This document shows positions 15,664 through 30,848 of a stretch of DNA of 34,589 nt, in pieces. Position numbers and translations under genes: made by a program. The stretch's first letter is position 1. Every line of letters begins with the position of its first letter. The DNA is from a virus. Under the pieces are notes generated by a model, which was given only the letters and a program-made list of their open reading frames with translations, was not told the origin of the DNA and searched no databases. Location: the IMG/VR virus record IMGVR_UViG_3300025168_000300, positions 1-34,589 of that record; one strand, written 5' to 3'.

Positions 15664-15951
15664 TTATTTTGAGGGTGTAAAATCTCCTGTTTCTATATCA
15701 ACATTTCCTACTCCATATTTTGAAGCATATTCCTTACCTAGTTCTGCTTCTTTTTGGTCTATTTTTTGAAGTTCTGCTTTAAGATTATTTTCTGTTTGTG
15801 TTAGTCTTTCTCTTTGTATAGAAATTTGACCTAAACTATATATAATTTTATCTGTTTCTCCTTGAAGTCCTCTAAGAATTTGTAGATCTTTATCTTCAAA
15901 TTTTGTAGATTTTGTTGCTGATGGTTTTTGGGTTTTTTCTTTTACTGCCAT
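15664..15951 (-). CDS. Small coiled-coil protein of unknown function (95 aa)
   Basis: After a basic N-terminus (MAVKEKTQKPSATKSTKF), residues about 20-75 form a heptad-like helix (LQILRGLQGETDKIIYSLGQ, then QISIQRERLTQTENNLKAEL). The C-terminus reads KYGVGNVDIETGDFTP. This layout (coiled coil followed by 'KYGxGxIDxETGxFTP') is one I have seen in small proteins encoded among structural genes of marine and crAss-like phages, without a known function. It has its own late-type motif (15986-15994) and a hairpin behind it, so it appears to be a single-gene unit between the fibre array and the sheath. Role in tail or fibre assembly is inference. Confidence 0.65.
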   Translation of the reverse strand: MAVKEKTQKPSATKSTKFEDKDLQILRGLQGETDKIIYSLGQISIQRERLTQTENNLKAELQKIDQKEAELGKEYASKYGVGNVDIETGDFTPSK

Positions 15952-15985
15952 AACTTTATTTTATTATTAATAATTGTTGTTCTTA

Positions 15986-15994
15986 TATACATAT
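15986..15994 (-). promoter_or_regulatory. Conserved late-type motif ATATGTATA upstream of the 95-aa gene
   Basis: The minus strand reads CGCATATATGTATATAAGAA, 34 bases before the ATG at 15951. It is the G variant, with a right flank (TATAAGAACAA) similar to the copy at 12429-12437. Promoter role is inferred. Confidence 0.5.
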
Positions 15995-16003
15995 ATGCGA
16001 ATT

Positions 16004-16849
16004 TTAAAAAACGCCACCTTCTATTACATTAAAACTACCTGTTAATGCTATTACTGAAGCTTTACATTCTATATTTCCTGTTGCAGTTATTATAGAAGCT
16101 GATAATATTGTTTCTGCATCTGAGTTGTCAGCTACTTTTAATCCTCCCTCTCTATCAAAACTCATTTTTCCTACCAATCCCTGAGCATCATAAAATTTTA
16201 TTGAAGATGAATTTAAATGAAGATCTCTCCATCTATGAGTAGCACTACCTAAGTCATATACGTAATCTGTTGCTGGTACAAAATGACCTGTTGTATTTAT
16301 TGTTCCATTTCCTGATGTTAAATTATCTGTGTGTATTATTCCACTTGAGCTTATATTACCTACTGTAATAAGATTACCTGAGGTATCTACTGTTAATTTT
16401 ACTATACCTGCACTTCTTAAATCTAAATCTGTGCCTAATAATGTTGCGCTAGAGCTAATATCTCCTGATGCTATTACTCCTCCAGTAACATTAACACTAT
16501 CTGCTATGTCTATTTCTGTACTACCATGTGATTCAAATGTATTAGCATAAATAGTACCACTTGCACTTACATCACCTGAGGCTGTTATATGGTGAGTTAT
16601 TATATTTCCTCCACTTATATCACCTGAGGCTGTTATAGCGTTAATTACTGCATTTGATGAAGATACTGTTCCTGTTGTAAAAGTAGGTCCTGCTGGTGTA
16701 ACGTGAGTAGTGTCTTGGCTTAATATTTTTTTTAGTTTTCCTCTTCTGTCTTTAAAATAAATATCCCCATTTTCGATATCTAACATTAAATCTTTATTGC
16801 TAAATTCGTAAATTTTAGGAGGGCCAACTTTTATTTTTACTTGTCCCAT
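16004..16849 (-). CDS. Repeat-type tail fibre protein (281 aa)
   Basis: The N-terminal head (MGQVKIKVGPPKIYEFSNKD, then GDIYFKDRRGKLKKIL) differs from the other fibres and may be the attachment domain. Residues about 50-180 are SASGDIS-type repeats (HHITASGDVSASGTIYANTF, ASGDISSSATLLGTDLDL). At about 195-212 lies VYDLGSATHRWRDLHLNSSS, the 'YDLGS...RWRDLYL' motif common in phage fibres. The C-terminus ends FNVIEGGVF. Such low-complexity Ser/Gly/Thr strands usually form trimeric beta-helical shafts. The gene is separated by only 3 bases from the 749-aa fibre gene upstream, so both are probably cotranscribed and may sit in the same fibre. Confidence 0.75.
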   Translation of the reverse strand: MGQVKIKVGPPKIYEFSNKDLMLDIENGDIYFKDRRGKLKKILSQDTTHVTPAGPTFTTGTVSSSNAVINAITASGDISGGNIITHHITASGDVSASGTIYANTFESHGSTEIDIADSVNVTGGVIASGDISSSATLLGTDLDLRSAGIVKLTVDTSGNLITVGNISSSGIIHTDNLTSGNGTINTTGHFVPATDYVYDLGSATHRWRDLHLNSSSIKFYDAQGLVGKMSFDREGGLKVADNSDAETILSASIITATGNIECKASVIALTGSFNVIEGGVF

Positions 16850-16852
16850 AAA

Positions 16853-19102
16853 TTAATAATTTATATCATCAAAATCGTTTTCTATTACAACAGTTACATA
16901 CATTCTATCTCCTGCATTTGTAGGTCCAGTTGATGCCCACTGCATACTAATTGATATAGCGTCTCCAGCTGCAAATGTTTCTTCTAAGACTGCTGATCTT
17001 CTAGTATTATTTGTATCATTACTTTCTTGAGTTGGATTTGTCATAGTAAAACTTGAAGCTTCATCCATACCATTCATTCTTTTTGCAGCAAGTCTTTTAT
17101 ATATTTTCCAAGTTATATCATCTGAAGTTGTTATAGAAGCCCAATGCATTCTAAGAATTATTTCTTTTATAGTTCCCGAAAAAGGCATTATAAGTGCGCA
17201 TGCTTCTTTAAAACCTGATGCACCCTCATCTGGAACCCCTGCTAAAGGTATAAAATGCTCTGTAGTTCCTGCGCTATCTTTCCAATTGGCATGATAAACT
17301 TGTAATTGTTTTCCTCTTATGGGACCAGCAAATGAACCTGACCCGTCTGCTGTTATTGAAGCTTTTGCTACACCTGCTGATCTTATATCTAAATTTGTAC
17401 CTGATAATTGACCACTTGAACTAACATATCCTTCTGCTGCTACATTTCCTGAAGCGTCTATTGTTGCTTTAGTAGCACCATTTGTTTGAGCAGTAAATGC
17501 AGTTCCTTGTATTGTACTACTTGCACTTATAGCTCCAGCGTTAGATATGTTAAGTGTGTTTATACCATTATGTGCAAATTGACCTGTGTTTGCACTAAAA
17601 ATTCCACTTCCACTCATTCCTCTACATGCCAAATCTCCTGAAGTGTCTATACTTGCTCTATCTGCACCATTTACTTTTATGTCTAAACTTGTTCCTGATA
17701 ATAATGCACTTGAGCTTATATATCCTTCTGCTGCTATATTTCCTGAAGTATCTATAGATGCAAGTGTTGCTCCATCTGTTTCTATAACTATGTTAGTTCC
17801 ATTATATCCTCTACTTGCACTAATTGCTCCTGCTGCTGTAGCTGTAAACACGTTTACACCATTTGATGCTAATGTTAAAGCTGTTCCTGCTATTGTTGAA
17901 CTTGCACTTAAAGCTCCAGCTGCTGATATATCAAATGCATTTACACCATTTGTTGCTAATGTTAAAGCTGTTCCTGATATTACTCCACTTGAACTAAGAG
18001 CTCCTAAAACTGTTAATTTTCCTGTTGATGGGTTTTGTTTTAATTTTGTACTTGTTTCAACTGCTTGTGTTCCACTTGCCCCATCTAATACTCCTATAAA
18101 AAATTCTGTGTTGTCTGTCGTTGCAACTGCGTTTACATTAGCAGATACATTAGCTATTGGTGCAATATTTTCTCCTTCTGTTGTTACTATAGATCCTTGT
18201 GCTCCCCATACTCCTACATCTATTTCGTCTGTTACCAATCTATTTGCAGAATTTAACACTACAACTGAATTGTCTGTTCCTGCTCCTAATTCCATATTTA
18301 CTGCATCGGATCCAATTATTAGACCCTCTCCAAATAATTTTCCACTTGCACTTACATCTTCACTACAAGAAATATATCCAAATGAGCCTGTTGCATTTAT
18401 ACCATCTCCAATACAATCAATACCTCCATTAAATGAACCTGTTCCATCAGATGCAATTGCTGCTTTTAGTACTCCTGCTGTTCTTAACTCTAATAAATTA
18501 CCAAATAATCTACCACTTGAACTTATAGTTCCTTCTGCTGCTATATTTCCCGAGGCATCTATAGTTGCTTTAGTTGCACCATTTGTTGCTAATGTTAAAG
18601 CTGTTCCTGATACTACTCCACTTGAACTTATATTTCCTTCTGCTGCTACATTTCCTTCAGGATCTATACTTGCTTTTGTTACTCCGTTCGTTTGAGCAGC
18701 AAACTCAGTTCCTTGAATTGCTGAACTTGCGCTTATAGCTCCACCACTAGATATATTAAGTGTATCTACACCATTATTGGCAAATTGAGCTGAGTTCCCT
18801 AATAATGCTGCACTTGCACTTACATATCCCTCTACTGCTACATTTCCTGAAGCGTCGATTGATGCTTTATGTACACCATTTGTAGTTAGTTTTAATTCTT
18901 TTGCTGATACTGTCCCACTTCCACTTATGTCTCCAGAAGAAGTTATATGTTGAAAAGCAAAACTTGATGAAACAGCATTACTAGAACCTGAAGTTCCATA
19001 GAATAATTTACCATTATCAACATTAATTGCTAATTCTCCTTGTTTTAAGGAACTTGGTACATCTGTTCCTGCTCCATTTTTTATTATTATTGTACTTGCC
19101 AT
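16853..19102 (-). CDS. Large repeat-type tail fibre protein with C-terminal receptor-binding-like domain (749 aa)
   Basis: The N-terminus MASTIIIKNGAGTDVPSSLK followed by QGELAINVDNGKLFYGTSGS is the 'LxQGELAINxxxGKLFYG' head found in phage fibres. Residues about 50-590 are a shaft of two alternating repeats: VSSSGxLxGTALTLATNGVN/TKATIDASGNVAAEG (about 28 residues) and ATGSFGYISCSEDVSASG. The C-terminal domain (about 597-749) is not repetitive: HANWKDSAGTTEHFIPLAGV, IMPFSGTIKEIILRMHWASI, ISMQWASTGPTNAGDRMYVT, VVIENDFDDINY. It looks like a beta-sandwich and is the best receptor-binding candidate of this fibre; I recall close relatives in marine phages. Several DNA blocks are shared with the 1011-aa fibre gene. 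A late-type motif ends only 4 bases before the ATG. Confidence 0.8.
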   Translation of the reverse strand: MASTIIIKNGAGTDVPSSLKQGELAINVDNGKLFYGTSGSSNAVSSSFAFQHITSSGDISGSGTVSAKELKLTTNGVHKASIDASGNVAVEGYVSASAALLGNSAQFANNGVDTLNISSGGAISASSAIQGTEFAAQTNGVTKASIDPEGNVAAEGNISSSGVVSGTALTLATNGATKATIDASGNIAAEGTISSSGRLFGNLLELRTAGVLKAAIASDGTGSFNGGIDCIGDGINATGSFGYISCSEDVSASGKLFGEGLIIGSDAVNMELGAGTDNSVVVLNSANRLVTDEIDVGVWGAQGSIVTTEGENIAPIANVSANVNAVATTDNTEFFIGVLDGASGTQAVETSTKLKQNPSTGKLTVLGALSSSGVISGTALTLATNGVNAFDISAAGALSASSTIAGTALTLASNGVNVFTATAAGAISASRGYNGTNIVIETDGATLASIDTSGNIAAEGYISSSALLSGTSLDIKVNGADRASIDTSGDLACRGMSGSGIFSANTGQFAHNGINTLNISNAGAISASSTIQGTAFTAQTNGATKATIDASGNVAAEGYVSSSGQLSGTNLDIRSAGVAKASITADGSGSFAGPIRGKQLQVYHANWKDSAGTTEHFIPLAGVPDEGASGFKEACALIMPFSGTIKEIILRMHWASITTSDDITWKIYKRLAAKRMNGMDEASSFTMTNPTQESNDTNNTRRSAVLEETFAAGDAISISMQWASTGPTNAGDRMYVTVVIENDFDDINY
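17868..17887 (-). repeat. 20-bp exact repeat in fibre genes (first of four copies)
   Basis: The plus-strand string gctaatgttaaagctgttcc is found exactly at 17868, 17955, 18588 and 21290, with near copies at 20871 and 21377. It encodes part of GTALTLA. The exact copies span two genes and form obvious recombination substrates. Confidence 0.7.
18354..18445 (-). repeat. 92-bp block shared with the 1011-aa fibre gene (copy 1)
   Basis: Aligned by eye without gaps against 21161-21252, the 92 bases differ at about 12 positions (roughly 87% identity). It encodes INATGSFGYISCSEDVSASG plus neighbours. Presence in two different fibre genes suggests exchange or duplication of shaft modules. Confidence 0.7.
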
Positions 19103-19106
19103 ATGT

Positions 19107-19115
19107 TATAAATAT
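19107..19115 (-). promoter_or_regulatory. Conserved late-type motif ATATTTATA immediately before the 749-aa fibre gene
   Basis: The minus strand reads AATATATTTATAACATATGG, leaving only 4 bases between core and ATG. If the motif is a promoter like the other copies, the transcript would be nearly leaderless; alternatively this copy has another role or is a chance A/T match. Confidence 0.35.
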
Positions 19116-19121
19116 ATTTTT

Positions 19122-19361
19122 TTAAAATGTTCCACCATGTATAAAACTTGCTGTTTGAGCATATGATGATGATAACTCAAGTGTTATTTCGTGAGAAGCA
19201 GAAACTGCAAATAATGCATATGATGCAGATATAGAGTGGGAAGAAGAAATAGGAATAAATATAGAACCAGTTCCGTCGGCTAATCTATTAGTTCCATCTG
19301 TTTGGACTATTCTTTGATAAGTGTCCTTTATATTTTCTCCTGTGAAATTGCTTATTGCCAT
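19122..19361 (-). CDS. Short fibre-associated protein (79 aa)
   Basis: The sequence NFTGENIKDTYQRIVQTDGT followed by RLADGTGSIFIPI is the 'GxNIxDTYQRVVQ...LxDGTGS' head motif of phage fibre proteins. It continues into the Ser/Ala/Tyr pattern SSSHSISASYALFAVSASHE and SSSYAQTASFIHGGTF. It consists of a fibre head plus about 45 residues of shaft-like repeat and no tip domain, so it could be an adaptor that docks another fibre or a reduced fibre. It lies 12 bases after the 186-aa gene and 19 bases before the 749-aa fibre gene, sharing their reading direction and probably their mRNA. Ends in Phe. Confidence 0.65.
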   Translation of the reverse strand: MAISNFTGENIKDTYQRIVQTDGTNRLADGTGSIFIPISSSHSISASYALFAVSASHEITLELSSSYAQTASFIHGGTF

Positions 19362-19373
19362 TTATAACCATTT

Positions 19374-19934
19374 TTAGTTTTGTTTTTCAAGAACTTTTAA
19401 CACACCATGTATTATTTTATCTGTGTTTTTCACGGTATTTTCTTGTAGATATGTTGCTACTATATTATTTAGTTCATTACGCTTGAATGAAATATTATCT
19501 ACGTTTATATCGTCTTTTACTAAAAGTTTAAATAAATTTATAACGTGTTGTGTTTCAGTAATTGTTGGTTTTTTATTTTTAACTTTAACCTTTACTTTAG
19601 CTTCTACGATAGGTTTTTTAGTTGTTTGTGATTTAACCTCAACAGTTACTTTTTTACTTGCGTTTACTTCAAAATCACTTTCCCAGGGTGTAAAAAAAGT
19701 ATCTTCAGCAATTACTTCTAATCGTATATTTCCTGAAGTATTTTCATCTATAAGTCCTTTTAATTTTTTAATTGGAATTTCACATTTACCTGATTTAGAA
19801 ATTGATCCCTTAAATAATAATGAATATTCAGGAGTTTCTACTACTAAACGTGCTTTTGATTCTTTTAAACTTGCTCCTTGTAGTGATATACTACATTCAA
19901 AAAGTTCTGTTTTATCTGTAAATAATTTATACAT
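19374..19934 (-). CDS. Conserved-looking phage protein of unknown function, beta-rich head with basic linker (186 aa)
   Basis: Residues 1-95 look like a beta-sandwich: MYKLFTDKTELFECSISLQG, ARLVVETPEYSLLFKGSISK, CEIPIKKLKGLIDENTSGNI, RLEVIAEDTFFTPWESDFEV. A Lys/Val-rich linker (KPIVEAKVKVKVKNKKP) follows, then a helical C-terminal segment (about 130-186). I recall similar N-terminal sequences (MYKLFTDK..FEC.I..EGAS) as hypothetical proteins in marine phage structural clusters; no function is known to me. It sits within the fibre array between the 94-aa and 79-aa genes, 21 bases downstream of the former. A virion or fibre-assembly role is inferred from location only. Confidence 0.6.
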   Translation of the reverse strand: MYKLFTDKTELFECSISLQGASLKESKARLVVETPEYSLLFKGSISKSGKCEIPIKKLKGLIDENTSGNIRLEVIAEDTFFTPWESDFEVNASKKVTVEVKSQTTKKPIVEAKVKVKVKNKKPTITETQHVINLFKLLVKDDINVDNISFKRNELNNIVATYLQENTVKNTDKIIHGVLKVLEKQN

Positions 19935-19955
19935 TATTGTGCTTTATAATAAATA

Positions 19956-20240
19956 CTAAAAGGATACATTTTCAGCCATTAATTCTATGCTTGCTTTATC
20001 TACTACTATTTTTATATCTTTAGCTGTTATTTTATATTGTTTAATTTCTCTTTTTTTAGATTCTGTTATGGTATTACCATATACTTTTAAAGTTAAACTT
20101 ATTAATTTTTCTTTTTTCTCAGTATCATATTTATAGATTTCTTCTATAAAATCTCCACCACCTGTAAGTACAGATAATTCCCAAATTAATTGAGTTTCAT
20201 CATAAGTAAAATTTGCATTATCCCAGGTCCAATATGACAT
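19956..20240 (-). CDS. Small unknown protein in the fibre cluster (94 aa)
   Basis: Starts MSYWTWDNANFTYDETQLIW. The Trp/Asp-rich opening 'TWDN..xTYDExxxxWE' is followed by an acidic/basic helix (EEIYKYDTEKKEKLISLTLK) and the segment KITAKDIKIVVDKASIEL. I have seen similar small proteins beside fibre and neck genes in marine phages, without an assigned role. The gene begins a new unit: a terminator after the 1011-aa fibre gene (20262-20286) and a late-type motif 12 bases before the ATG. Together with the 186-aa, 79-aa, 749-aa and 281-aa genes it may form one operon. Confidence 0.6.
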   Translation of the reverse strand: MSYWTWDNANFTYDETQLIWELSVLTGGGDFIEEIYKYDTEKKEKLISLTLKVYGNTITESKKREIKQYKITAKDIKIVVDKASIELMAENVSF

Positions 20241-20252
20241 ATAACGTTTTAT

Positions 20253-20261
20253 TATACATAT
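20253..20261 (-). promoter_or_regulatory. Conserved late-type motif ATATGTATA upstream of the 94-aa gene
   Basis: The minus strand reads TTTATATGTATAATAAAACG, 12 bases before the ATG at 20240 and directly joined to the T run of the preceding terminator. Right flank ATAAA is shared with the copy at 8895-8903. Promoter role is inferred. Confidence 0.5.
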
Positions 20262-20286
20262 AAAAAAAGCCTCATAAAGAGGCTTT
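20262..20286 (-). terminator. Rho-independent terminator after the 1011-aa fibre gene
   Basis: The minus strand forms AAAGCCTC / GAGGCTTT with a five-base loop, followed by TTTT. It begins about 25 bases after the stop codon of the 1011-aa fibre gene. Confidence 0.82.
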
Positions 20287-20310
20287 AATTATTTTTATTT
20301 TAATTAATTA

Positions 20311-23300
20311 TTATGTTGTTGAAATATCTGCTACATCACAAGGACAAAATGCATTTATTTGCCATATTGTTCCATCAGAAATACAATGTACTCTTGTACC
20401 TTGTTCAAATTTCGTTGCTGCAAATATAAAGTTAGTTCCGTATATGTGTTCATTAGCGTCTTTACAAATTGCCATACCGGCTAAATCTGTGGATGCTGCT
20501 TTTATTGTTGTAGTACCTGTACCCGTTGAAGTTTGTGTTGCAATAAATGTATATTCTAATCCTTTTGTTGCTGCGGGAAGAGTATATGCTACTGCATTAT
20601 TACCTGTTCTTTGATCAACTGAAATTACTGTTCTACTTGGGTAAACAGCTTCAGTTAATTCTAAGTTAATTGCACTACTATTTGCTTGTGCATCTGTTGG
20701 CATTTTACCAGATACTGTTGTAAACGAACCTGTTCCATCAGCTGCAATTGTTGCTTTAGTTACTCCTGCTGTTTTTATATCTAAAGCTGTTCCTGCTAAA
20801 GTGCTACTTGCACTTAAAGCTCCAGCAGTTGTTACTGTTAAAGCATTTACACCGTTTGTTGCTAATGTTAAAGCTGTACCTGATACTACTCCACTTGAAC
20901 TTATTGTTCCTTCTGCTGCTACGTTTCCTGAAGCGTCTATTGAAGCTTTATGAACTCCATTAGTTGTTACTGTTAAAGCTGTTCCAAATAATATAGCACT
21001 TGAACTTAAATTTCCTATAACCTCAGAGGCACCTAAAACTGAAATTCCTGGAGTAGTTCCTAATGTAACTATATCATCACCAGATCCATTTGCAATTATT
21101 GGAATAACAGCACGAGTTCCTGCTGTTAGTGTTTCACCAAATACTGTTCCACTTGAGCTAACATCTTCACTACAAGAAATATATCCAAATGAACCTGTTG
21201 CATTTTTTGCATCTCCTATACAATCAATTCCCCCTAAGAACGAACCTGTTCCTAAAGCATCTATACTTGCATAAGTAGTTCCTGTTGTTGCTAATGTTAA
21301 AGCTGTTCCTGCTATTGTTGAACTTGCACTTACAGCTCCTGCTGTTGATATTGTAAGGGCATTTACACCATTTGTTGCTAATGTTAAAGCAGTACCTGCT
21401 AATGTTGAACTTGCACTTACAGCTCCTGCTGTTGTTATTGTAAGAGCGTTTATACCTGCTGATGCAAATGTTGCACTTCTACCTGCTATTAATGCACTTG
21501 AACTAATATTTCCTAATCCGTAAATAGCACCTTCTGTAATGATATCTGCATTTGCACCACTCATACTTAAAGCACCACTCATTGAAACTGATCCAGTTAC
21601 ATCAATTGATAAACCATGTAACTGTGTTACACTTGCTCCTCCTCCTAATTTTACTGTGTTTGTTGCTTGATCTCCTGTTGCAAATAGAAGTGAATCTGTG
21701 TAATATTGAACAGCATGCATATGAGCACTTGTACTAATATTTCCACTTGCCGAAACATTTCCAAATGAACTTGTGCTTAATGTGTCTGCTTCAAATCCTA
21801 AACTTGCACTTACTCTACTTGCACTTATTTCTCCTGCTGTTACAAGAGCACCACTCATTGAAATTGTACCAAAATTACTTGTAGTTCCTGCGTCTGTTTC
21901 AAATCCAGCACTTGCACTAACTCTTCCACTTGAACTAATACTTCCTACAATTTCTACATTTCCTGAAGAATCAATAGACATTTGTTGTGTATTGTTTGTA
22001 TGGAAGTCCATAGAGTTATCAGTATGTTGATATCTTATTCTACCTATATCTTCATCATCAGTGTCTCCTAATTTTACAATTGATTCTCCTGCAGCATGAC
22101 CAATAATAGATACTGCTGCACTTGAATTACCTGGTAAATTTCTTTGGAATATTGCTACTGTGTCATTATCAATTGTAGGAAGAGCTCCATTTCCATTTAA
22201 TTGTGTATGTAAAACACCACTCATTGAGACAGATCCTGATACGTCTATACTTAAACCATGTAATTGAGTTACACTTGTTCCTCCTCCTAATTTTACTGTG
22301 TTTAATGATTGGTCTCCTGTTAATGCTAAAAGTGAATCTGTGTAATATTGAACCGAACGTACAGCTGTGCTTGTACTAATGTCTCCACTTGCACTTACAT
22401 ACCCAAATGAACCTGTAGCTGCTGCTGCGTCTACTCCTCCAAAGAAGGAACCAGTACCTGCTGAGCTTACATCGCCACTTGCTGAAATATATCCAAATGA
22501 ACCTGTTGCTGTTCCATCTGTAACTATACCTGCTGCAAAAGATCCTGTTCCACTAGCACTTATATCTCCACTAGATGAAACATACCCAAATGAAGCTGAT
22601 ACGTTATTACTTGAGCTAATATTTCCATGTATGACAGTAACTCCTTGTATTTCTACAGCATCATTTACAAATAAATCATTTAATGATCCTGAAGCACTAC
22701 CACTTATGTTTTCTTCAACATGAACATATTGGAATGAACCTGATGCATTTAAAGCATCAATACCTCCTCCAAAAGAAGCTGTTCCACTCATAGTCATATC
22801 TCCACTTGCTGAAATATATCCAATTGAAGCTGTATGGTATACTTCAAGTCCTACTTGAGTAGAACCTGTTGCAGTAAATAAACCTCTACTAGCACTTATA
22901 TGATATGATGTTACAAGAGCACCACTCATTGAAGCATATGTTAATGATGATGAATTTGATGCTATCATTCCTTGATCAAATGAACCTGTTCCAGATGCTA
23001 ATATTTCTCCATTTGAATACACATGATGGAATGAGCCTGTTCCATTTACACCAGTACCACTTGCACTAATATTACCACTTGCTGTTATATGTTTTACTAC
23101 TAAGGAATTTAAATAAATTGTTCTCCATTGTTTTGCTTGGGATCCTAAATCATATGTGATATTTGCATCTGGTAATATACTTGAACTTACCTCTGCTGAG
23201 AAAGTTACTGAGTCTGTGTCTGCGTCTCCAATGTATAAATGACCACCTATTGTTACGTCATTTTTAACTACTAAAGATCCAGATACACTAACTGATGAAC

Positions 23301-23346
23301 CCGATCCTAATAGAGGGGTTAAATTATTTACATTAATATTGCTCAT
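20311..23346 (-). CDS. Largest repeat-type tail fibre protein (1011 aa)
   Basis: The N-terminal part contains HLYIGDADTDSVTFSAEVSS and ITYDLGSQAKQWRTIYLNSL (about 35-82), which parallel the 805-aa fibre at 25897-28314. A shaft of more than twenty ATGSFGYISASGDISASGTGSF-like units follows, then GTALTLATNGVNALTISTAGAVSASS-like units near 640-890. Two copies of a block YYTDSLLxxTGDQxxNTVKLGG followed by SVTQLHGLSID lie near residues 333-378 and 546-590. The C-terminal tip (about 898-1011) is non-repetitive: AVAYTLPAATKGLEYTFIAT, then MAICKDANEHIYGTNFIF and GTRVHCISDGTIWQINAFCP. It resembles the tip of the 805-aa fibre and is a host-recognition candidate. The gene has a late-type motif 48 bases upstream and a terminator behind it. 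Confidence 0.8.
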   Translation of the reverse strand: MSNINVNNLTPLLGSGSSVSVSGSLVVKNDVTIGGHLYIGDADTDSVTFSAEVSSSILPDANITYDLGSQAKQWRTIYLNSLVVKHITASGNISASGTGVNGTGSFHHVYSNGEILASGTGSFDQGMIASNSSSLTYASMSGALVTSYHISASRGLFTATGSTQVGLEVYHTASIGYISASGDMTMSGTASFGGGIDALNASGSFQYVHVEENISGSASGSLNDLFVNDAVEIQGVTVIHGNISSSNNVSASFGYVSSSGDISASGTGSFAAGIVTDGTATGSFGYISASGDVSSAGTGSFFGGVDAAAATGSFGYVSASGDISTSTAVRSVQYYTDSLLALTGDQSLNTVKLGGGTSVTQLHGLSIDVSGSVSMSGVLHTQLNGNGALPTIDNDTVAIFQRNLPGNSSAAVSIIGHAAGESIVKLGDTDDEDIGRIRYQHTDNSMDFHTNNTQQMSIDSSGNVEIVGSISSSGRVSASAGFETDAGTTSNFGTISMSGALVTAGEISASRVSASLGFEADTLSTSSFGNVSASGNISTSAHMHAVQYYTDSLLFATGDQATNTVKLGGGASVTQLHGLSIDVTGSVSMSGALSMSGANADIITEGAIYGLGNISSSALIAGRSATFASAGINALTITTAGAVSASSTLAGTALTLATNGVNALTISTAGAVSASSTIAGTALTLATTGTTYASIDALGTGSFLGGIDCIGDAKNATGSFGYISCSEDVSSSGTVFGETLTAGTRAVIPIIANGSGDDIVTLGTTPGISVLGASEVIGNLSSSAILFGTALTVTTNGVHKASIDASGNVAAEGTISSSGVVSGTALTLATNGVNALTVTTAGALSASSTLAGTALDIKTAGVTKATIAADGTGSFTTVSGKMPTDAQANSSAINLELTEAVYPSRTVISVDQRTGNNAVAYTLPAATKGLEYTFIATQTSTGTGTTTIKAASTDLAGMAICKDANEHIYGTNFIFAATKFEQGTRVHCISDGTIWQINAFCPCDVADISTT
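21161..21252 (-). repeat. 92-bp block shared with the 749-aa fibre gene (copy 2)
   Basis: Second copy of the block at 18354-18445, about 87% identical by hand count. It encodes KNATGSFGYISCSEDVSSSG plus neighbours. The two copies have the same direction and length. Confidence 0.7.
21573..21711 (-). repeat. Internal duplication in the 1011-aa fibre gene (copy 1, 139 bp)
   Basis: Aligns without length change to 22215-22353, with long identical stretches such as tcctcctcctaattttactg. It encodes the QYYTDSLL...TGDQ...NTVKLGGG.SVTQLHGLSID block. Both copies are in direct orientation, 642 bases apart. Confidence 0.7.
22215..22353 (-). repeat. Internal duplication in the 1011-aa fibre gene (copy 2, 139 bp)
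   Basis: Partner of 21573-21711. Equal length and direct orientation would allow loss or gain of 642 bases (214 codons) in frame by recombination. Confidence 0.7.
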
Positions 23347-23394
23347 TCTGTTTTTGTTTTAATGTGGTTGTCTGTTTAATATTGTTTTACGTTA

Positions 23395-23403
23395 TATAAA
23401 TAT
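23395..23403 (-). promoter_or_regulatory. Conserved late-type motif ATATTTATA upstream of the 1011-aa fibre gene
   Basis: The minus strand reads TCTATATTTATATAACGTAA, 48 bases before the ATG at 23346. No hairpin is visible between it and the preceding gene's stop at 23427. Promoter role is inferred. Confidence 0.5.
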
Positions 23404-23426
23404 AGATTTTTTTTGGAGAACCATAA

Positions 23427-25844
23427 TTATAATGCACTACCCGTTATGGATAAATGTCCTGAATTATTTACTGTAAATCTAAATTTATTTCCATTAGGGG
23501 CTGTTAGTATTATTCCTTGAGAAGATGAATCTCCTGCATAAATATCTCCACTAGCACTTATACTTCCTACTACTGATAATTCTTTTTGAGGATCCATTCC
23601 TCCTATTCCTACTCTACTTCCTGTTAGTATTAAAGTATTTGTTGCACTTCCACTAAATATTTTTACTATTGATTGCTTTGTCCCATCTTTATTAATTTGT
23701 AAAACCTGTAGTGGTTTTTTAGATTCATTTGCATTATATGAAAATCTAAATTCACTATTCCAATCTGTTTTATTGAAATCATCTGCCCCATCTTTAAAAG
23801 CTAAATAACCTGCATGATTAGATGATGAACCAATCATAGAGATTTCTGGGGCTCCCTCTTTAGCTTCTAAAACAAGTCTTGGTTTACTTGCTGAAATATG
23901 TAAGTGTGCAGAAGCTGAAGGGTAAATATTATTATATTGGTCATTAAATGAATTACTTCCTGAAGGACCAATTGCTTGTGTGTCTCCTATCCCTATGGTT
24001 TTAAAAAGGGCTATATCTTTTCTAACAACCCCATGATGTACCCCATCTACTGTTACATCTGCTCCTTGTTTTATAGTGTAAGTAGAGTTGTTTTGGATTG
24101 TTATTGAATGAGGATCCGTTGTTATTGGATTATTATTTGGATCCTCAGATTGTGTTACGTTTGTAGTTGTGTGTAAAATTGTAACAAAATTTTCTGGAAC
24201 TGTTGCATTGTGTCTTATAGTTACATCGTTACCTACTCCTGCTGTCCCTGCTCCAAAACCTTTCATTAAGGTTGTTTCAGAATCTATATTTGCTTGAGCA
24301 TAAGGAATAAAATCACCTGTATCAACATCATATCTATATAATCTTTCTGCTATTGGAGTGTATTGTAAATCTACTTGGGCATCTGTATTTATTGTATAAT
24401 TTGATCCCATAGGGATTGTAAATTCTCCCGTATTATTAGTAACTATAGTATTATTAGTATTAGGAGTTATTGTTACACTACCTGTTACTGATACTTCATT
24501 ACCATGGACTCCTGCTCCTAAATTAGTTATACCACTACCATCTCCTACTAAATAACCAAAAGAACCAGTACCACTAGCACTTACATTACAACTTGCTGTT
24601 AATTGACCTTTAACGTGAAGGCTAGAATCACAATCTTCTCCTATTGTTACCTGATTTCCTATTATATTATGTCCTCCACTTGCACTTAAATTTCCACTAG
24701 CTGTAACAGATACTTGGGCAAAAAGATGTCCTGACATGTTTATCATAGTAGATTGATCATTTTCTCCTATTTGGAGAGATGAACCTGAATCTGGTAATAC
24801 TTGGTCTAAGGTTATTGATCCAACATTAGTTATATTTTGATCTCCAAAATCAGCTCCATAAGCATATAACATTCCGCTTGCACTTATTTCACCTGAAGCT
24901 GTTAAAGATCCTGAAGCTCCACTAGATGATCCTGCTAAAAATAGAGAACCAGTTATAACACTAGAGCCACTTCTATGACCTGTTACTTTAAAAGTATCTA
25001 ATGTGGACGCGAATCCTGCACTTGAAGTGTAAAAGAATTGTCCTGATTGTGAATTGTAAGTTGCTATATTTTGAAATCCTAAGGAAGCTGAAATATAACC
25101 AAATGACCCAGTTGCTCCAATTACTGTTCCACTTGCACTTATGTTTCCACTAGCTGTTATATTTCCTGATGATCCAGATATTATTACTGTTGCTTGACCA
25201 AATCTTACATTATTTGCAAAATAACCTTCATTTGCAAATAAAGTTCCATTACTTGAACTTATATTTCCTGATGCTTGTATTGTAGTAAAACTAGCAGAAG
25301 AGGCTCCACCAAATCCTATTGCTGAATTATCAATATCTATGTTTTTAATCATACCTGAACTACCAGATAACATACTAAAGGAACCAGATATAGATGTTAA
25401 ACTATTTATTGTCGCTATATTTTTATTAGAATCAAGTATTAAAGCTTTTTTTGCTTGAGCTATTCCAACAAATACCTCGTCTATAGCAAAAAGGTCTGCA
25501 TCGTCTACATTAACACTACCAACTCTAAAAAATGTGCCTGCTTCTATACTTTGGTCTGAAAGTATTTTTCCATTAGTTGATAACTCCCCATTGGCAGCAA
25601 TAGTTAATCCTGAATTTCCATATCCACCTCCAACTGTTATACTGGGGAATGCTGTTACCCCTGATATGTCTAGATAAGCAAAACTACCTGTTGTAGCTGA
25701 TATAGTTCCACTAATAGTAACAGTTCCCGTGTTAACTTCTGACATATGAACAATAGAATCAATCAGATCCCCAAATTGTGCTTGAGTTGGTCTATCTCCT
25801 GTTTGAAATGTTGCCTTTATTACTGAGGTTGGTTGTATTGCCAT
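23427..25844 (-). CDS. Tail fibre protein with DLIDS-type head and complex C-terminal region (805 aa)
   Basis: The head reads VIKATFQTGDRPTQAQFGDL, then IDS, the 'xFxTGDxPTxxQFxDLIDS' motif of phage structural proteins; the 172-aa fibre-like protein at 30330 has a related head. Residues about 45-450 are repeats (ASGNISASGTVIGATGSFGY) with a GDGSGITNL motif, a common fibre turn. The C-terminal 350 residues are less repetitive: VTITPNTNNTIVTNNTGEFT, RPRLVLEAKEGAPEISMIGS-like strands, then VGIGGMDPQKELSVVGSISA, which matches the 'VGIGTTxPxxxLxVxGxISASG' motif close to fibre tips, and a final GIILTAPNGNKFRFTVNNSG strand pair. No S74-type intramolecular chaperone motif is seen. A late-type motif lies 21 bases upstream of the ATG. 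Confidence 0.78.
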   Translation of the reverse strand: MAIQPTSVIKATFQTGDRPTQAQFGDLIDSIVHMSEVNTGTVTISGTISATTGSFAYLDISGVTAFPSITVGGGYGNSGLTIAANGELSTNGKILSDQSIEAGTFFRVGSVNVDDADLFAIDEVFVGIAQAKKALILDSNKNIATINSLTSISGSFSMLSGSSGMIKNIDIDNSAIGFGGASSASFTTIQASGNISSSNGTLFANEGYFANNVRFGQATVIISGSSGNITASGNISASGTVIGATGSFGYISASLGFQNIATYNSQSGQFFYTSSAGFASTLDTFKVTGHRSGSSVITGSLFLAGSSSGASGSLTASGEISASGMLYAYGADFGDQNITNVGSITLDQVLPDSGSSLQIGENDQSTMINMSGHLFAQVSVTASGNLSASGGHNIIGNQVTIGEDCDSSLHVKGQLTASCNVSASGTGSFGYLVGDGSGITNLGAGVHGNEVSVTGSVTITPNTNNTIVTNNTGEFTIPMGSNYTINTDAQVDLQYTPIAERLYRYDVDTGDFIPYAQANIDSETTLMKGFGAGTAGVGNDVTIRHNATVPENFVTILHTTTNVTQSEDPNNNPITTDPHSITIQNNSTYTIKQGADVTVDGVHHGVVRKDIALFKTIGIGDTQAIGPSGSNSFNDQYNNIYPSASAHLHISASKPRLVLEAKEGAPEISMIGSSSNHAGYLAFKDGADDFNKTDWNSEFRFSYNANESKKPLQVLQINKDGTKQSIVKIFSGSATNTLILTGSRVGIGGMDPQKELSVVGSISASGDIYAGDSSSQGIILTAPNGNKFRFTVNNSGHLSITGSAL

Positions 25845-25865
25845 TTTTATTGTTTATTTATCATA

Positions 25866-25874
25866 TATAAATAT
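25866..25874 (-). promoter_or_regulatory. Conserved late-type motif ATATTTATA upstream of the DLIDS-type 805-aa fibre gene
   Basis: The minus strand reads GTTATATTTATATATGATAA, 21 bases before the ATG at 25844, in the gap after the stop of the upstream fibre gene. Flank TATATGAT is shared with the copies at 15580 and 33979. Promoter role is inferred. Confidence 0.55.
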
Positions 25875-25896
25875 AACTTTTTATTCTATTATTGAG

Positions 25897-28314
25897 TTAG
25901 GCTAAAGCTGGTGTGTCATTTGTTCTTCCCTCTACAATATATTTTTCTCCGTCACTTACTATAGTAAACCTATCTCCAACTTTAGGATTTACTAATGTTA
26001 TCCTAGTTACTCCACTTCCAAAATCAGTTCTTGCCATAGTAGAATCGGTATCATCATTAGCATTATCCATTACATACCCTTGCATTATTGCGGCAGGAGC
26101 TAATAGGATATGTTCTACGGCGCTAGCCGCTATAAATCTGTAATTTACACCTTTAGAACCATCTATTGATGGTAATTGGAATGTTTGTGCTGATGCTCCT
26201 GATGGCATTAATAATACACCACTATCATTTATACTTAATTCTAAGGATGAAGCTTTTATTATTTTTTTACTTTTAAATGCTCCAGAAGCATCATATCTAA
26301 CTAATTTACTAACTTCAATAGAATCATCATCAGTTTTAACAAGTTGGTTTAAATCATTTACGCCTCCAATAAATCCATCTAATTTATTTAATTCAGCTGC
26401 TGTTGATGATACTGTTACTCCTCCTATTTGAAAACCACTAGCTGCATTTAAAGTTCCATTTGTTGTTGTTTCTGCTGCTATTGTTGCAATTCCTCCTACT
26501 GTTAAAGCTCCCCCTACTAATGCTGTTGCACTAGCTGTGAAAGGAAGTGTTACACTTACAGGTAAAGAAGGTATTTGCAAGTGTGCTCTTTCCCCTATTA
26601 CATTATATTGTACACCATTTATTTGTGAATCATCATTTAAGTTAAATCTATATCCTAAATTATTTCCTACTTGAGCTTGAACTGATTGTCCTTTTAATAA
26701 ACTTCCACTTATAGTTCCACTTGATGATATAGCGCCTGCTGCAAATGTTCCACTCATGCTTATATCTCCACTACAAGAAATATACCCAAATGAACCTGTA
26801 CCATCAACACCATCACCTCCTGGAGAAATACAATTTATACCCCCTTCAAACGAACCGGTTCCACTTGAACTAATATCTCCACTACAAGAAATAAACCCAA
26901 ATGAACTAGTACTTAAAGTATCCGCTTCAAATCCTAAACTTGCACTTACTCTACTTGCACTTACATGGCCTAATCCGGGAGTATTATTACCTACTATTAT
27001 AGATCCTGATACTGATAAAATACCTAAACCTGATTTATTATAAGTTAGTCCAGTATCACTTCCCATATTTGTACCACCATCATTAAATTGTATAAATGTG
27101 TCTGAACCGTGAGCTGTAGCAGCACCTACACTAGCTGTTACATTAGTAAGATATCTTCCATCTCCTGCAAAATAACTTGAAGAAATAGTTCCACTAGAGC
27201 TTATTGTAAATTCTAATTCATCAGATGCTGATATAAACATATATCCCATAGAACTTGATCCACTTAATATAAGATGATCCATAGAAGATGTTACACTTAT
27301 AATTTCTCCACTTGAACTTACATATCCAAACGAACTTGTACTTAAAGTATCTGCTGCAAACCCACTAGCACTTATCATACCACTAGCACTAATATCAGTA
27401 AGAACTTCCCCTGTTATAGATATATTTTCAGTAAATATATTTCCACTTGTACTTATATCTCCACTAGCTGAAATATACCCAACTGATGCTGTTGTAGTAG
27501 ATGCTATGACTATACCTCCTATAAATGAACCAGTTCCACTGGCACTTACATTACCTACTATTTCACTTGTTACTTGTAAAAATTCAAAGGAACCTGTACC
27601 TGAAGATGATATGTCTCCACTTGAACTAATATATCCAAATGAACCAGTTGCATTAGGAGATTCTATTCCTCCTTGAAACGATCCTGTTCCACTAGAACTA
27701 ACATTACTTGTTGCAATATATCCAAATGAACCTGTAGCTCCTGTTGCTACTACACCTCCTTGAAAAGAACCAGTTCCACTAGCACTAACTGATCCACTGA
27801 TTTCACCACTTACAAAGAAATGATTAAAAGATCCTGTTCCTGCTCCACTTACAAAAGTATCTACACTTACACTAACTACATCTAAAACAGAACCTGTAGT
27901 TCCTACTCCTGTTAGTTCACTTCCATCTCCTCTAAAAATAGATGCTGATATTCCCCCACTAGCTGTAATTGTAGTAAAGGGAGGTAATTCTAATTCATCA
28001 AATTTACCTACTTTTCCATATACTATTCCACTTGCACTTATTTCACCTGAAGCTGTTATATTTGCTATATGTAATTTATTCCATTCTTTTACTGTTGAAC
28101 CTAAATTATAAGTTACTGTAGCATCTGGAATTATACTTGAACTTATTTCTGCTGTTAAACTTACTGAATCTGTTGTTGCATCTCCTAATTTAATAGATCC
28201 ACTCATAGTAATATTATCAGCTACTATTAAGCTTTGAGATATTTTTAAAGATCCCGATATATTAACTATAGATCCTGAATCTGGATAAATTGTATTTACG
28301 AATAATGTACTCAT
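25897..28314 (-). CDS. Repeat-type tail fibre protein (805 aa)
   Basis: The head has SGSIKLGDATTDSVSLTAEI and VTYNLGSTVKEWNKLHIANI (about 40-90), similar to the 1011-aa fibre. Shaft repeats of the GTGSFQGGVVATGATGSFGY type run to about residue 600, with two GDGSxLTxV turns. Near 620-640 lies VSSTAAELNKLDGF, a recurrent 'TATAAELNKLDG' fibre motif. The tip (about 700-805) shows QTFQLPSIDGSKGVNYRFIA and, near the end, VGDRFTIVSDGEKYIVEGRT, related to the tip of the 1011-aa fibre by the pattern 'F/YxLPxxxKGxxYxFIA....G....ISDGxxxxI'. Two fibres with related heads and tips but different shafts suggest a duplicated fibre pair. It begins 16 bases after the stop of the Cys-rich 658-aa gene. Confidence 0.8.
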   Translation of the reverse strand: MSTLFVNTIYPDSGSIVNISGSLKISQSLIVADNITMSGSIKLGDATTDSVSLTAEISSSIIPDATVTYNLGSTVKEWNKLHIANITASGEISASGIVYGKVGKFDELELPPFTTITASGGISASIFRGDGSELTGVGTTGSVLDVVSVSVDTFVSGAGTGSFNHFFVSGEISGSVSASGTGSFQGGVVATGATGSFGYIATSNVSSSGTGSFQGGIESPNATGSFGYISSSGDISSSGTGSFEFLQVTSEIVGNVSASGTGSFIGGIVIASTTTASVGYISASGDISTSGNIFTENISITGEVLTDISASGMISASGFAADTLSTSSFGYVSSSGEIISVTSSMDHLILSGSSSMGYMFISASDELEFTISSSGTISSSYFAGDGRYLTNVTASVGAATAHGSDTFIQFNDGGTNMGSDTGLTYNKSGLGILSVSGSIIVGNNTPGLGHVSASRVSASLGFEADTLSTSSFGFISCSGDISSSGTGSFEGGINCISPGGDGVDGTGSFGYISCSGDISMSGTFAAGAISSSGTISGSLLKGQSVQAQVGNNLGYRFNLNDDSQINGVQYNVIGERAHLQIPSLPVSVTLPFTASATALVGGALTVGGIATIAAETTTNGTLNAASGFQIGGVTVSSTAAELNKLDGFIGGVNDLNQLVKTDDDSIEVSKLVRYDASGAFKSKKIIKASSLELSINDSGVLLMPSGASAQTFQLPSIDGSKGVNYRFIAASAVEHILLAPAAIMQGYVMDNANDDTDSTMARTDFGSGVTRITLVNPKVGDRFTIVSDGEKYIVEGRTNDTPALA

Positions 28315-28330
28315 GTTGTATTATATTATA

Positions 28331-30307
28331 TTAATAACTATAACTTGTTCCTGTTCCACTTGTTCCTGTTCCACTAGAACTTCTTCTAACAGTTTGGGTT
28401 CCTCCTGTTGTTTGAGTTCCTCCTGTTGTTTGAGTTCCTCCTGTTGTTTGAGGTGTTACTGTTGTTTGAGTTCCTCCTGTTGATGACATTTGTGAGTTAA
28501 GCATCAAACTTCCGTCTGGCATATAATGGTACCCAGGTGGGGCCGTTTGTGAACTTGTTATTTCTTCTATTTTTGGTTTTTTTATGTTGATTACTTTATT
28601 ACAAGGGTGATATCTTTTTGTAAAATGTGCTTTTTTATTATTCCCTATACCTAACATTAATGAAGGTTTTAAAGTTAAAGATGTTCCAAAAGCAACGGGT
28701 CCTGTAGGGGAAGAGGGGGTTGATTCTGCTTTATAAGCCCCATTAGGGAGAATGTGATAATTTCCTACAAAAAATTTATTATTAGGTAATAAAAATTGAT
28801 TGCCATTAGTATGGAATCCTTTTTGCATAATTCCTGGATAACAATTTCTAAAAGTATCTCCTGCATATATTAATAATTCTTTAGGAGCCCAACTAACACA
28901 ATAATATTGGCTTCTTATTTGTGCATTCCATTTTGAACAATTGTTATTTTTGTTAAAAATACAATTTACACATTTTTGACCCCCATCTGTAGGTAACTTG
29001 TATGATGATGGTAAAGTTGACATTAATGCTTGGTTTGTATCTTTATATGTTCTATCACCATTTCTATAAGAAAGAATAGTATTACTAAATTCTGTAGGGA
29101 TAGTTAAAGGTGCATTTCCTTTTACTTTTTTACCCAAAAGAGCTACAGCAATACCGGTGTTGCTATTATTTGCAGGTAAATATTTCATTTTAAAGGTATA
29201 ATAAGGCCCTTTATAAACTTCTCCTGTAGTTGAAAGTACAAATTTCTGTGATTTTGATAATCTTTGTCTTACTTGTGATTTTGGTTTTTTAATTTCATTT
29301 TCATAAGTATTAGTACTTCCCTTTTTTGATTTTAGTTTAGGTTTAGATAAATCATCAGGTCTATCATCTAATTTAGTTTTTACTATTATTTTATCCCTCT
29401 TTATTGGTACTAAAGGTCTTTCTCTTTCATCACTATTATAATTAGTATCTAAATTATCTGAAATCTTAAAATCCTGATAATCAACTGTTCCCCCTACGGG
29501 GGCATAATGGCAGGCTCCATTATTTACTGTAGCTTTAGGGTTATGATTTAAGGCAGAAGGATCTGTACAACCAAAATAACCACATGAACCATCATCTAAA
29601 TTTGCTCTTGTATTATAATTATATGCTGTTGGATCCATACATCCTTCAACTGTTACCATACATGAACCATCATCTACTACTGCTTTAGGGTTAAAATTTC
29701 TAGAATTAGGATTTGTACATCCTGTTTTTATTTGGAAATTAATTCCATCTATAACTCTTAAGGTTGCTCCTTCTTTAATTCTTAAACTACCTGTTTTATT
29801 AGACCCCTCACTTCCTGTAGTTATTCTTATAGGACCCTCTATTTTAGGAGATGGATTTATTTTAGATGTTTCTAATCCTTTTCTCTTAATAATATAACGT
29901 TTTTCTTCTCCATCTTGTCCTGGTAATACAATTTTATTTGCACGATTATCATCTTCTGATATAACATTATCTATTTTTGAAGATGTAAAAGTTGTAGTAT
30001 CAAATTCATATAGGGGATTTTCAAGATCAAAAGAAGTTTCTAAATTAATCCCACAAGTAAAAGCAGCGCTTCCTGATAGAAGAAATTTTGAACCTGAGTA
30101 TAAGACAGGAGAGGAAGTTGATGTTCTTTCAGAAGAACTAATTGCTAAAGTTGTTGTTGCTCCTAGTCGCTCATAACTTATATAATCCTCTCTATTACCT
30201 TTAAATAAAGGATTATAAATAGACATTGGTATTTGTTTCCCTTTATCATCAAGATATGATGATTTTTCTGATGGAATTACTGGTTTAGGTTGTGTATAAT
30301 CGGCCAC
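28331..30307 (-). CDS. Cys-rich structural protein with GCxDPxAxNY repeats and HiPIP-like Cys motif (658 aa)
   Basis: The start is GTG at 30307, giving (M)ADYTQPKPVIPSEKSS; the next ATG would remove 27 residues. Residues 196-266 hold three tandem repeats: GCTNPNSRNFNPKAVVDDGS-C, GCMDPTAYNYNTRANLDDGS-C and GCTDPSALNHNPKATVNNGA-C. This motif is known from Bacteroidota secreted and cell-surface proteins and some marine phage proteins. Residues 446-470 have C-x2-C-x7-C-x12-C followed by VSW, resembling the Fe-S ligand pattern of high-potential iron-sulfur proteins with a shorter second gap. Later come FFVGNYHILPNGAY and PPGYHYMPDGSLML, turns found in phage tail proteins. The C-terminal 40 residues are TTGGTQ repeats and end TSYSY. 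Located between neck and fibre genes, it is probably a virion protein; ligand binding and function are inference. Confidence 0.65.
   Translation of the reverse strand: MADYTQPKPVIPSEKSSYLDDKGKQIPMSIYNPLFKGNREDYISYERLGATTTLAISSSERTSTSSPVLYSGSKFLLSGSAAFTCGINLETSFDLENPLYEFDTTTFTSSKIDNVISEDDNRANKIVLPGQDGEEKRYIIKRKGLETSKINPSPKIEGPIRITTGSEGSNKTGSLRIKEGATLRVIDGINFQIKTGCTNPNSRNFNPKAVVDDGSCMVTVEGCMDPTAYNYNTRANLDDGSCGYFGCTDPSALNHNPKATVNNGACHYAPVGGTVDYQDFKISDNLDTNYNSDERERPLVPIKRDKIIVKTKLDDRPDDLSKPKLKSKKGSTNTYENEIKKPKSQVRQRLSKSQKFVLSTTGEVYKGPYYTFKMKYLPANNSNTGIAVALLGKKVKGNAPLTIPTEFSNTILSYRNGDRTYKDTNQALMSTLPSSYKLPTDGGQKCVNCIFNKNNNCSKWNAQIRSQYYCVSWAPKELLIYAGDTFRNCYPGIMQKGFHTNGNQFLLPNNKFFVGNYHILPNGAYKAESTPSSPTGPVAFGTSLTLKPSLMLGIGNNKKAHFTKRYHPCNKVINIKKPKIEEITSSQTAPPGYHYMPDGSLMLNSQMSSTGGTQTTVTPQTTGGTQTTGGTQTTGGTQTVRRSSSGTGTSGTGTSYSY
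28398..28487 (-). repeat. Tandem 18-bp repeat, five units, encoding TTGGTQ
   Basis: Plus-strand unit gttcctcctgttgtttga is perfect at 28398, 28416 and 28434, degenerate at 28452, and partial at 28470. Unit length is a multiple of three, so copy-number change keeps the frame. A pair of 15-base units (gttcctgttccactt type) lies just beyond it at about 28349. Confidence 0.85.
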
Positions 30308-30329
30308 TTTTGTTTTTTTATTAAATTAA

Positions 30330-30848
30330 TTAACCGGTAAATACCATTAAATATTTAGAAGTTCCAGAAGCACTTGATCCTGATAACCATAATGCTCCAG
30401 TTATAGATGTTTCTGTTGTTGGTAATCCTTTTAATACTGAATTACCTTCTCCACTTATATACCCACTTGCACTTATATTTCCTGTTACATCTAAGGAACT
30501 TAAAGTACCTAATGACGTTATATGAGGTTGTGCAACTGTTGATAAAGTACCTGCTACTGATCCAAAAGAACCTGTTGATTCTATAGCGTTTATCCCTCCT
30601 GTAAATGAACCTGTTCCACTAGCACTTATATCTCCACTAGCAGATATCATTCCAAAAGATCCTGTTCCATTATATGCTCCTGCATCTATGCCTCCTTCAA
30701 ATGAGCCTGTTCCTTGTAAATTAAGACTGCCTGTATTAGCAACATCTAATATTATAGGACTATCTATTAAGTCTGCATAATTTCCTCCTGTAGGTATATC
30801 TCCTGTTTCAAAGTATCCTTTTAATGTTGTTCTTGTTTGTTTTGCCAT
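30330..30848 (-). CDS. Short fibre-like protein with DLIDS-type head (172 aa)
   Basis: The head TTLKGYFETGDIPTGGNYAD, then LIDS, parallels the head of the 805-aa fibre at 23427-25844 (ATFQTGDRPTQAQFGDLIDS). The shaft consists of about five units such as GTGSFEGGIDAGAYNGTGSF and GMISASGDISASGTGSFTGG. The C-terminus TSITGALWLSGSSASGTSKY, then LMVFTG, is short and non-repetitive. It is the first fibre-type gene after the neck block and lies 4 bases downstream of the gp15-like gene, so it is read from the same mRNA. It may be a short tail fibre, a whisker-like neck fibre, or an adaptor; the sequence does not decide between these. Confidence 0.72.
   Translation of the reverse strand: MAKQTRTTLKGYFETGDIPTGGNYADLIDSPIILDVANTGSLNLQGTGSFEGGIDAGAYNGTGSFGMISASGDISASGTGSFTGGINAIESTGSFGSVAGTLSTVAQPHITSLGTLSSLDVTGNISASGYISGEGNSVLKGLPTTETSITGALWLSGSSASGTSKYLMVFTG

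Follow-up and report, generated by a model that had tools for sequence, protein, structure and literature searches.

The fibre gene array and its surroundings

The stretch of DNA analysed here, hereafter the window, is the 34,589-base virus record IMGVR_UViG_3300025168_000300 (GC content 28-37% in 2-kb windows), whose minus strand carries an array of seven fibre-type genes together with one Cys-rich and two small genes, lying between a presumed neck gene and a short gene followed by the tail sheath gene. We propose that this locus is probably a multi-fibre adsorption rack of a far-T4-type myovirus, in which fixed N-terminal anchors would carry exchangeable C-terminal ends. In the direction of transcription the window holds PhoH, the head-tail adaptor, three short genes, the array, a gene of 95 amino acids (aa), the tail sheath, tube and hub genes, and further tail genes; the genes described here are all on the minus strand, and plus-strand open reading frames (ORFs) that overlap them reach 369 aa. 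The three short genes after the head-tail adaptor are presumed neck genes by position, and two of them, at 30853 and 31896, have no PHROG or Pfam match. The one that borders the array (30853..31896; 347 aa), called "neck" from its place beside the head-tail adaptor gene, has relatives in the phages immuto, LR756508 and Mel-JY01.

Reading from the neck gene, the array begins with fibre A1 (30330..30848; 172 aa), whose DLIDS head is a probable baseplate anchor and which has a weak PHROG tail-fiber match (phrog_6942, E 3.1e-5). It is followed by the Cys-rich protein (28331..30307; 658 aa, 13 Cys), fibre B1 (25897..28314; 805 aa), with a VN..GDATTDSV..YNLGS head and a tip kept in two close relatives at 51-53%, fibre A2 (23427..25844; 805 aa), with a second DLIDS head, and fibre B2 (20311..23346; 1011 aa). 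The small conserved gene p94 (19956..20240; 94 aa) then precedes p186 (19374..19934; 186 aa), a strongly conserved gene inside the array and a candidate adaptor or assembly chaperone, after which come fibre F (19122..19361; 79 aa), a minimal form with a DTYQR head, fibre G (16853..19102; 749 aa), with a GELAIN head, and fibre H (16004..16849; 281 aa), with a KIKPP head and a weak PHROG tail-fiber match (phrog_7121, E 4.5e-5). A short charged gene, "coil" (15664..15951; 95 aa), marks the far end of the slot and immediately precedes the sheath gene (13034..15532; 832 aa; phrog_23, E 3e-71). Every gene named in an earlier note on this DNA is present where that note had placed it, on the minus strand, and the head motifs that it quoted are found in the translations. 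Its estimate of about 3000 residues in all was too low, the seven fibres totalling 3902 aa (281, 749, 79, 1011, 805, 805 and 172 aa), and it had entered the 79-aa gene twice, once among the fibres and once among the small unknown genes. The Y(D/N)LGS...W motif, which it had assigned to two genes, occurs in three; because it is also present at residue 198 of 16004-16849, it is better described as a fibre module than as a head alone.

The proposal that these proteins have common Ser/Gly/Ala shaft repeats holds for composition in all seven fibres, in which Ser, Gly and Ala make up 30-41% of residues, compared with 22% for the Cys-rich protein and a range of 11-26% across 16 further proteins of the window. 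Repeat units themselves were recognised in six of the seven: shaft-repeat profiles gave 3-8 units of type A in six fibres and 3-12 units of type B in four; the 79-aa gene, the Cys-rich gene and 6 further proteins of the window gave no units, and 160 shuffled sequences used as a control gave one unit for each profile. This result is partly circular, since the profiles were seeded from the same fibre proteins. Independently of the profiles, 13 families of DNA direct repeats of at least 40 nucleotides (nt) are common to fibre genes; one example, 146 nt long at 79%, links 16853-19102 with 20311-23346.

T4-type contractile tail genes in the window are recognised by PHROG matches for sheath, tube, hub, wedge and head-tail adaptor, and the gp23 gene lies outside it. 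The closest sheath is that of Microcystis phage Mel-JY01 (45.7% identity), and further relatives occur in the uncultured 484-kb phage LR756508 (38.6%), in Flavobacterium phage vB_FspM_immuto (Immutovirus; 49.7% over 53%) and, more distantly, in Rhodothermus phage RM378 (27.8%). On account of these sheath relatives the window is classed as a fragment of the genome of an uncultivated myovirus of far-T4 type, a distant relative of T4. Elsewhere in the tail region, a 1303-aa protein (1387-5298) has by eye an EGF-like Cys run near its C-terminus, and its relative in immuto is annotated as a carboxypeptidase.

Slot, gene order and cassettes in related contigs

Related loci were taken from the matches to sheath (488), neck (240) and p186 (222), the 80 best in each case, and thus represent near relatives rather than the whole group; sources with a common exact 300-mer were merged, which reduced 241 to 140 groups. 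Many of the fetched contigs are short, and their genes were labelled with iterated profiles that had been made from these loci themselves, labelled ORFs being preferred over overlapping ones and a labelled neighbour being counted where loci of one group differed. Eighteen complete neck-to-sheath intervals were obtained, 17 of them of 5.0-17.6 kb. That of Mel-JY01 measures 0.4 kb, with 41 bases between the neck gene and the short pre-sheath gene, no fibre, and 378 bases from neck end to sheath start. The slot of immuto spans 12 kb and holds genes annotated as tail fiber, structural protein and lysozyme, among others; in 15 further intervals, from viral contigs, it spans 5.0-17.6 kb. At 15.3 kb the window slot is at the large end of the range, as are those of its close relatives L165 (16.7 kb) and L166 (17.6 kb). 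LR756508, its ORF list read by eye, shows no fibre between the neck and main sheath genes, and instead carries, at the place of the fibres of its relatives, a second sheath-like gene (L242:6512-8986; 824 aa) with a IIGPTEQGPAFVPKTL motif. No description of this slot in far-T4 phages was found in the open-licence literature searched; a word search of the text of an open far-T4 survey (PMC4360716) returned neither "fiber" nor "fibre". A word search of a paper on Baltic Flavobacterium phages (PMC7077304) gave no mention of immuto.

One gene order runs through the fetched loci, as labelled by head-profile searches: neck, A, optional extras, p94, p186, F, G, extras, H, coil, sheath. The gene after neck is A in 81 of 89 groups (otherwise p94 in five, and B, coil and an unlabelled gene in one each); directly upstream of p186 stands p94 in 56 of 61 groups and an unlabelled gene in five, directly after p186 stands F in all 57, and directly after coil the sheath in all 61. 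The 17 complete arrays have between 2 and 8 labelled fibres each, and p186 is present in 14 of the 18 complete intervals, being missing from Mel-JY01, immuto, L165 and L166. In L165 and L166 (sheath identity 74 and 92%), A, the Cys-rich gene, B, A and B are kept and a W-x73-x60-W cassette replaces p94-p186-F; both cassettes are present in L172 and L176. The slot of immuto is the same one and its W-x60-W cassette resembles that of these close relatives; it differs from the window in that no A, p94, p186, F, G or H gene was recognised in it. Very long array proteins were also seen in L172, L175 and L174, two of them H-headed (3351 and 2717 aa) and one A-headed (2268 aa).

The Cys-rich protein contains three GC(T/M)(D/N)P...C repeats at residues 196, 222 and 246, which we take to resemble calcium-binding thrombospondin type 3-like motifs; besides these it has a Thr/Gly-rich end. 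Within the fetched set, three further contig groups hold a relative of its gene, and a direct search of viral contigs with the protein gave none. Among named phages, tblastn returned nothing for 28331-30307, 23427-25844 or 19956-20240.

Heads, tips and the p94-p186 pair

Within most fibre types the N-terminal heads are conserved and the C-terminal tips are not. Mean identity within a type, over the first 40 and the last 100 residues respectively, is 0.56/0.20 for A (limited to the first 60 entries), 0.61/0.24 for F, 0.67/0.17 for G, 0.41/0.15 for H and 0.43/0.22 for W, and length within a type ranges widely, for example 79-3351 aa in H and 64-1338 aa in F. In fibre B2 the first 60 residues are 93-98% identical to those of L165 and L166, and the tip has no match there or in any of the 203 fibres described below. 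The flanking genes lack such a contrast: over the first 60 and last 120 residues, identity to L166 and L165 is 0.75/0.73 and 0.79/0.83 for the neck protein and 0.72/0.68 and 0.53/0.54 for the coil protein. Moreover, some tips occur on different heads. The 203 fibres that have a complete C-terminal end, measure at least 150 aa and differ from one another in the last 120 residues fall into 65 tip clusters, 38 of them singletons, and 53 pairs from different contig groups align over at least 60 residues up to both C-termini while carrying different heads; these pairs, which are not independent, involve 26 of the 203 fibres and six head combinations, such as the G fibre of L164 and the W fibre of L166 (62% over 132 columns). 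An 83% match between A and F fibres (L088, L231) was not counted as a swapped tip on account of its internal position. Several fibre genes with conserved heads and swapped C-terminal modules, the pattern of a multi-receptor-binding complex, are thus found in these loci.

Head profiles were built from 24 of 28 G, 24 of 76 A, 24 of 29 H and 24 of 34 F heads, and a further one from all 73 A heads, and were compared with sequences of solved structures. Among 177,635 distinct sequences of this kind, the 73-sequence A-head profile matched a tail fiber protein (9qgo, E 7.4e-5), AfpX13 (E 0.0028) and, weakly, All3316 (E 0.084), followed by 8on5, named an adenoviral fiber protein (E 0.12), and four more up to E 2 that are unrelated by name; with the 24-sequence profile the three best were 9qgo (0.017), AfpX13 (0.07) and All3316 (0.59). 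The A heads carry the anchor-like N-terminal motif LK..F..G.IP.Q..(Y/F).DL(I/V)D, and 4 of 24 match phrog_22781, annotated as of unknown function. In the Anabaena injection system All3316 is known as Cis13; according to the part of the study consulted (PMC8894136), this fibre-like protein forms trimers and attaches to the baseplate by its N-terminal domains, and a survey of contractile injection systems, also consulted in part, describes five N-terminal baseplate anchor domains, of which eBAP1 and eBAP2 are helical bundles (PMC12923769). Since the A heads match solved contractile-tail fibres, among them, weakly, the baseplate-binding Cis13, fibres of type A are probably anchored to the baseplate. 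Among the G heads, 21 of 24 match Mtd_N (PF18454) at E up to 0.1 (best 3.2e-7) and 22 of 24 match phrog_15769 (function unknown); the G head of the window (gene 16853) scores 18.0 bits, under the curated Mtd_N cut-off of 26.3. The H heads resemble the G heads (hhalign probability 93.6), and A and G heads show no relationship by the same comparison (1.5). No convincing relative among solved structures was found for the F, G and H head profiles or for the whole fibres 25897 and 16853.

The p94-p186 pair has a different character. The p186 protein lacks a Ser/Gly-rich composition and is more conserved than the neck protein (mean identity 83.0% versus 66.8% in 17 neck-fetched groups; higher in 134 of 136 pairs). 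A freely mobile p186 cassette had been suggested by a flat 82-83% identity below 80% neck identity in 51 groups; this reading was dropped because that set is biased by p186-fetched loci, and in the 17 neck-fetched groups the two identities correlate (r 0.64). Strong constraint on p186 is the simpler reading. Profiles from alignments of 28 of 29 p186 representatives and 30 of 60 p94 sequences recognise two adjacent ORFs, among 83 segments, of the 642-kb phage LR756502 (L241:7451-8360; p186 E 2.2e-37; p94 E 6.1e-6, 19 bits with strong bias), which adjoin a 1501-aa Ser/Gly/Ala/Thr-rich gene on the other strand; this phage was the only match of p186 in tblastn against named phages. Its p186 relative has a different N-terminal extension. 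Neither profile found a convincing relative among solved structures. Monomer predictions have low confidence (pLDDT 55.5 for p186 and 43.2 for p94), and the fold suggested by the p186 model, a beta sandwich plus a helical tail, is too uncertain to be named. The model had no match in the PDB at E up to 0.001 and matched three uncharacterised viral proteins in BFVD at that threshold; the N-terminal beta sandwich of this low-confidence model matched a BppU-domain protein with probability 0.99 but E 0.04. A second PDB comparison gave a best Z of 5.0, for a baseplate chain of phage Douge tied with unrelated folds, and the BppU Pfam family had no match among 28 p186 members. The earlier note had proposed three small connectors, among them the 79-aa gene. 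The latter is a very short member of the F family, whose lengths run from 64 to 1338 aa, whereas p94 and p186 form a conserved pair that, judged from sequence, could possibly act as an adaptor or chaperone.

A probable multi-fibre adsorption rack and its alternatives

In the proposed rack, each fibre gene would encode one of a few fixed heads that docks to a defined place on the tail, followed by a repetitive shaft rich in Ser and Gly and by a C-terminal end that can be exchanged and meets the host; the fibres are presumed to be trimers and to be present in the virion. Type A, with two members here, would be anchored to the baseplate by a short Afp13/Cis13-like motif, the B, F, G and H heads would attach to other fibres or to further sites on the baseplate, and p94 and p186 would act for the F/G part, either as an adaptor or as a chaperone of assembly. 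Recombination in the shaft repeats and between phages would alter tips and whole cassettes, with heads and gene order being retained. A more specific version, in which p94-p186 is a dedicated docking unit whose Ig-like p186, near-constant across far-T4 phages and accompanied by p94 even in a 642-kb phage, would connect the tail to any F/G fibre present, giving a single virion several fibre species with tips traded between fixed sockets, is conceivable but rather doubtful. The earlier suggestion of a branched or multi-receptor adsorption apparatus is supported as far as a multi-fibre array is concerned, by the conserved slot, the fixed heads, the variable and sometimes swapped tips and the A-head match; for branching, no known branching domain was recognised by sequence. 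Virion decoration, which the note had also named, is a minor possibility.

Several observations weigh against the rack. B heads show little conservation across the set as a whole (0.31/0.15 over the first 40 and last 100 residues), and among close relatives the contrast is reversed for A1 in L166 (head 0.58, tip 0.74) and mild for B1 and H in L165 (0.63/0.53 and 0.38/0.32) and for the Cys-rich protein (0.58/0.51 and 0.42/0.32); no cross-head tip was found in 177 of the 203 fibres. The A-head match to contractile-tail fibres is about 22 residues long, the third entry in its list is a repeat protein (8prj, E 0.029) taken as an artefact on account of eight equal weak stretches, and the 73 A heads match no Pfam family. 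None of the 10 array proteins scanned has a Pfam or NCBIfam family at its cut-off, and PHROG matches, weak ones, were obtained for two of the 10. Finally, the slot lies beside neck genes, outside any baseplate gene run.

The fixed gene order in the fetched arrays and the small conserved proteins between large ones would also be consistent with one long composite fibre, built from serial segments like T4 gp34-gp37 with a hinge, for which p94, p186 and F would provide the pieces. Such a serial chain should need every joint, and so the varying number of labelled fibres, the cassettes missing or replaced in L165 and L166, and the C-terminal tips found on different heads argue against this arrangement, which we regard as unlikely. 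The array might instead encode neck whiskers, a collar or a sheath decoration which, like T4 fibritin, would only stabilise or sense: it lies between presumed neck genes and the sheath gene, and in T4 the wac gene adjoins the neck genes. Neck whiskers, first suggested by that position, were set aside in favour of the baseplate on the A-head match to contractile-tail fibres, among them a known baseplate binder; variable, exchanged tips are moreover typical of receptor binding, and the G heads resemble Mtd_N, a tropism-determinant domain, which together make this a very unlikely explanation. Cassette replacement and the DNA repeats common to fibre genes could also be expected of a reservoir from which each virion would use only one or two fibres, the others being spare or switchable cassettes. 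All ORFs are, however, intact, closely packed and on one strand, the heads are retained from contig to contig, something that idle cassettes would not require, and the array holds only 11 short imperfect inverted pairs (18-29 nt, 72-94%; no chance level computed), none of them resembling an inversion switch; a reservoir is accordingly the least probable of the alternatives.

Multi-fibre loci with fixed heads and traded tips are already known in other phages. In Ackermannviridae (CBA120 TSP1-4, S117), several receptor-binding proteins have conserved N-termini and variable C-termini, with receptor modules swapped between types, as reported in the part of the source consulted (PMC8432352). The array resembles these branched tailspike complexes in having several receptor-binding-type genes of that organisation; it differs in its heads, shafts and partner genes, and the N-terminal XD docking domains of those complexes are not recognised in it, searches of the array proteins by sequence for T4 gp10-like XD domains having given no Pfam, PHROG or NCBIfam match. 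The jumbo phages phiKp24 and RaK2 have ten to fourteen putative fibre proteins each, which have been modelled as assembling on a primary baseplate fibre (PMC9700779, PMC10253068; both consulted in part). These are Klebsiella phages with depolymerases, and no sequence link between them and the array was found. With the eBAP-anchored fibres Afp13 and Cis13 it has in common an A head with a similar N-terminal motif, but it is a phage locus beside neck genes, with Ser/Gly-rich shafts and two such fibres in the one array. The conserved rack, the p94-p186 pair and the A-head link were not found described in the open-licence literature searched.

The host is probably a member of the Bacteroidetes. 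No AGGAG lies within 20 bases of the start in any of the 11 genes of 15664-30848, and AGGA does in one, which we take to be as expected for Bacteroidetes. The cultured phage immuto infects Flavobacterium (sp. LMO8); Mel-JY01, by contrast, comes from Microcystis. In the part consulted of one study, a marine far-T4 genome is linked in silico to a Bacteroidetes host, and the group is described as widespread in aquatic environments (PMC7198788). Pattern-limited scans of 84,980 species genomes found no p186 or sheath relative and so gave no hint of a host.

Taken together, the locus looks like a rack for swapping host-recognition parts, and its defined slot and recognisable anchors could help to name receptor-binding genes in contigs that lack annotation, of which there are hundreds (488 sheath matches). 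The A-head link further points to a type of baseplate socket that phages and injection systems have in common. If the p94-p186 docking unit were to prove true, the locus would amount to a plug-and-socket host-range system in an uncultivated phage group.

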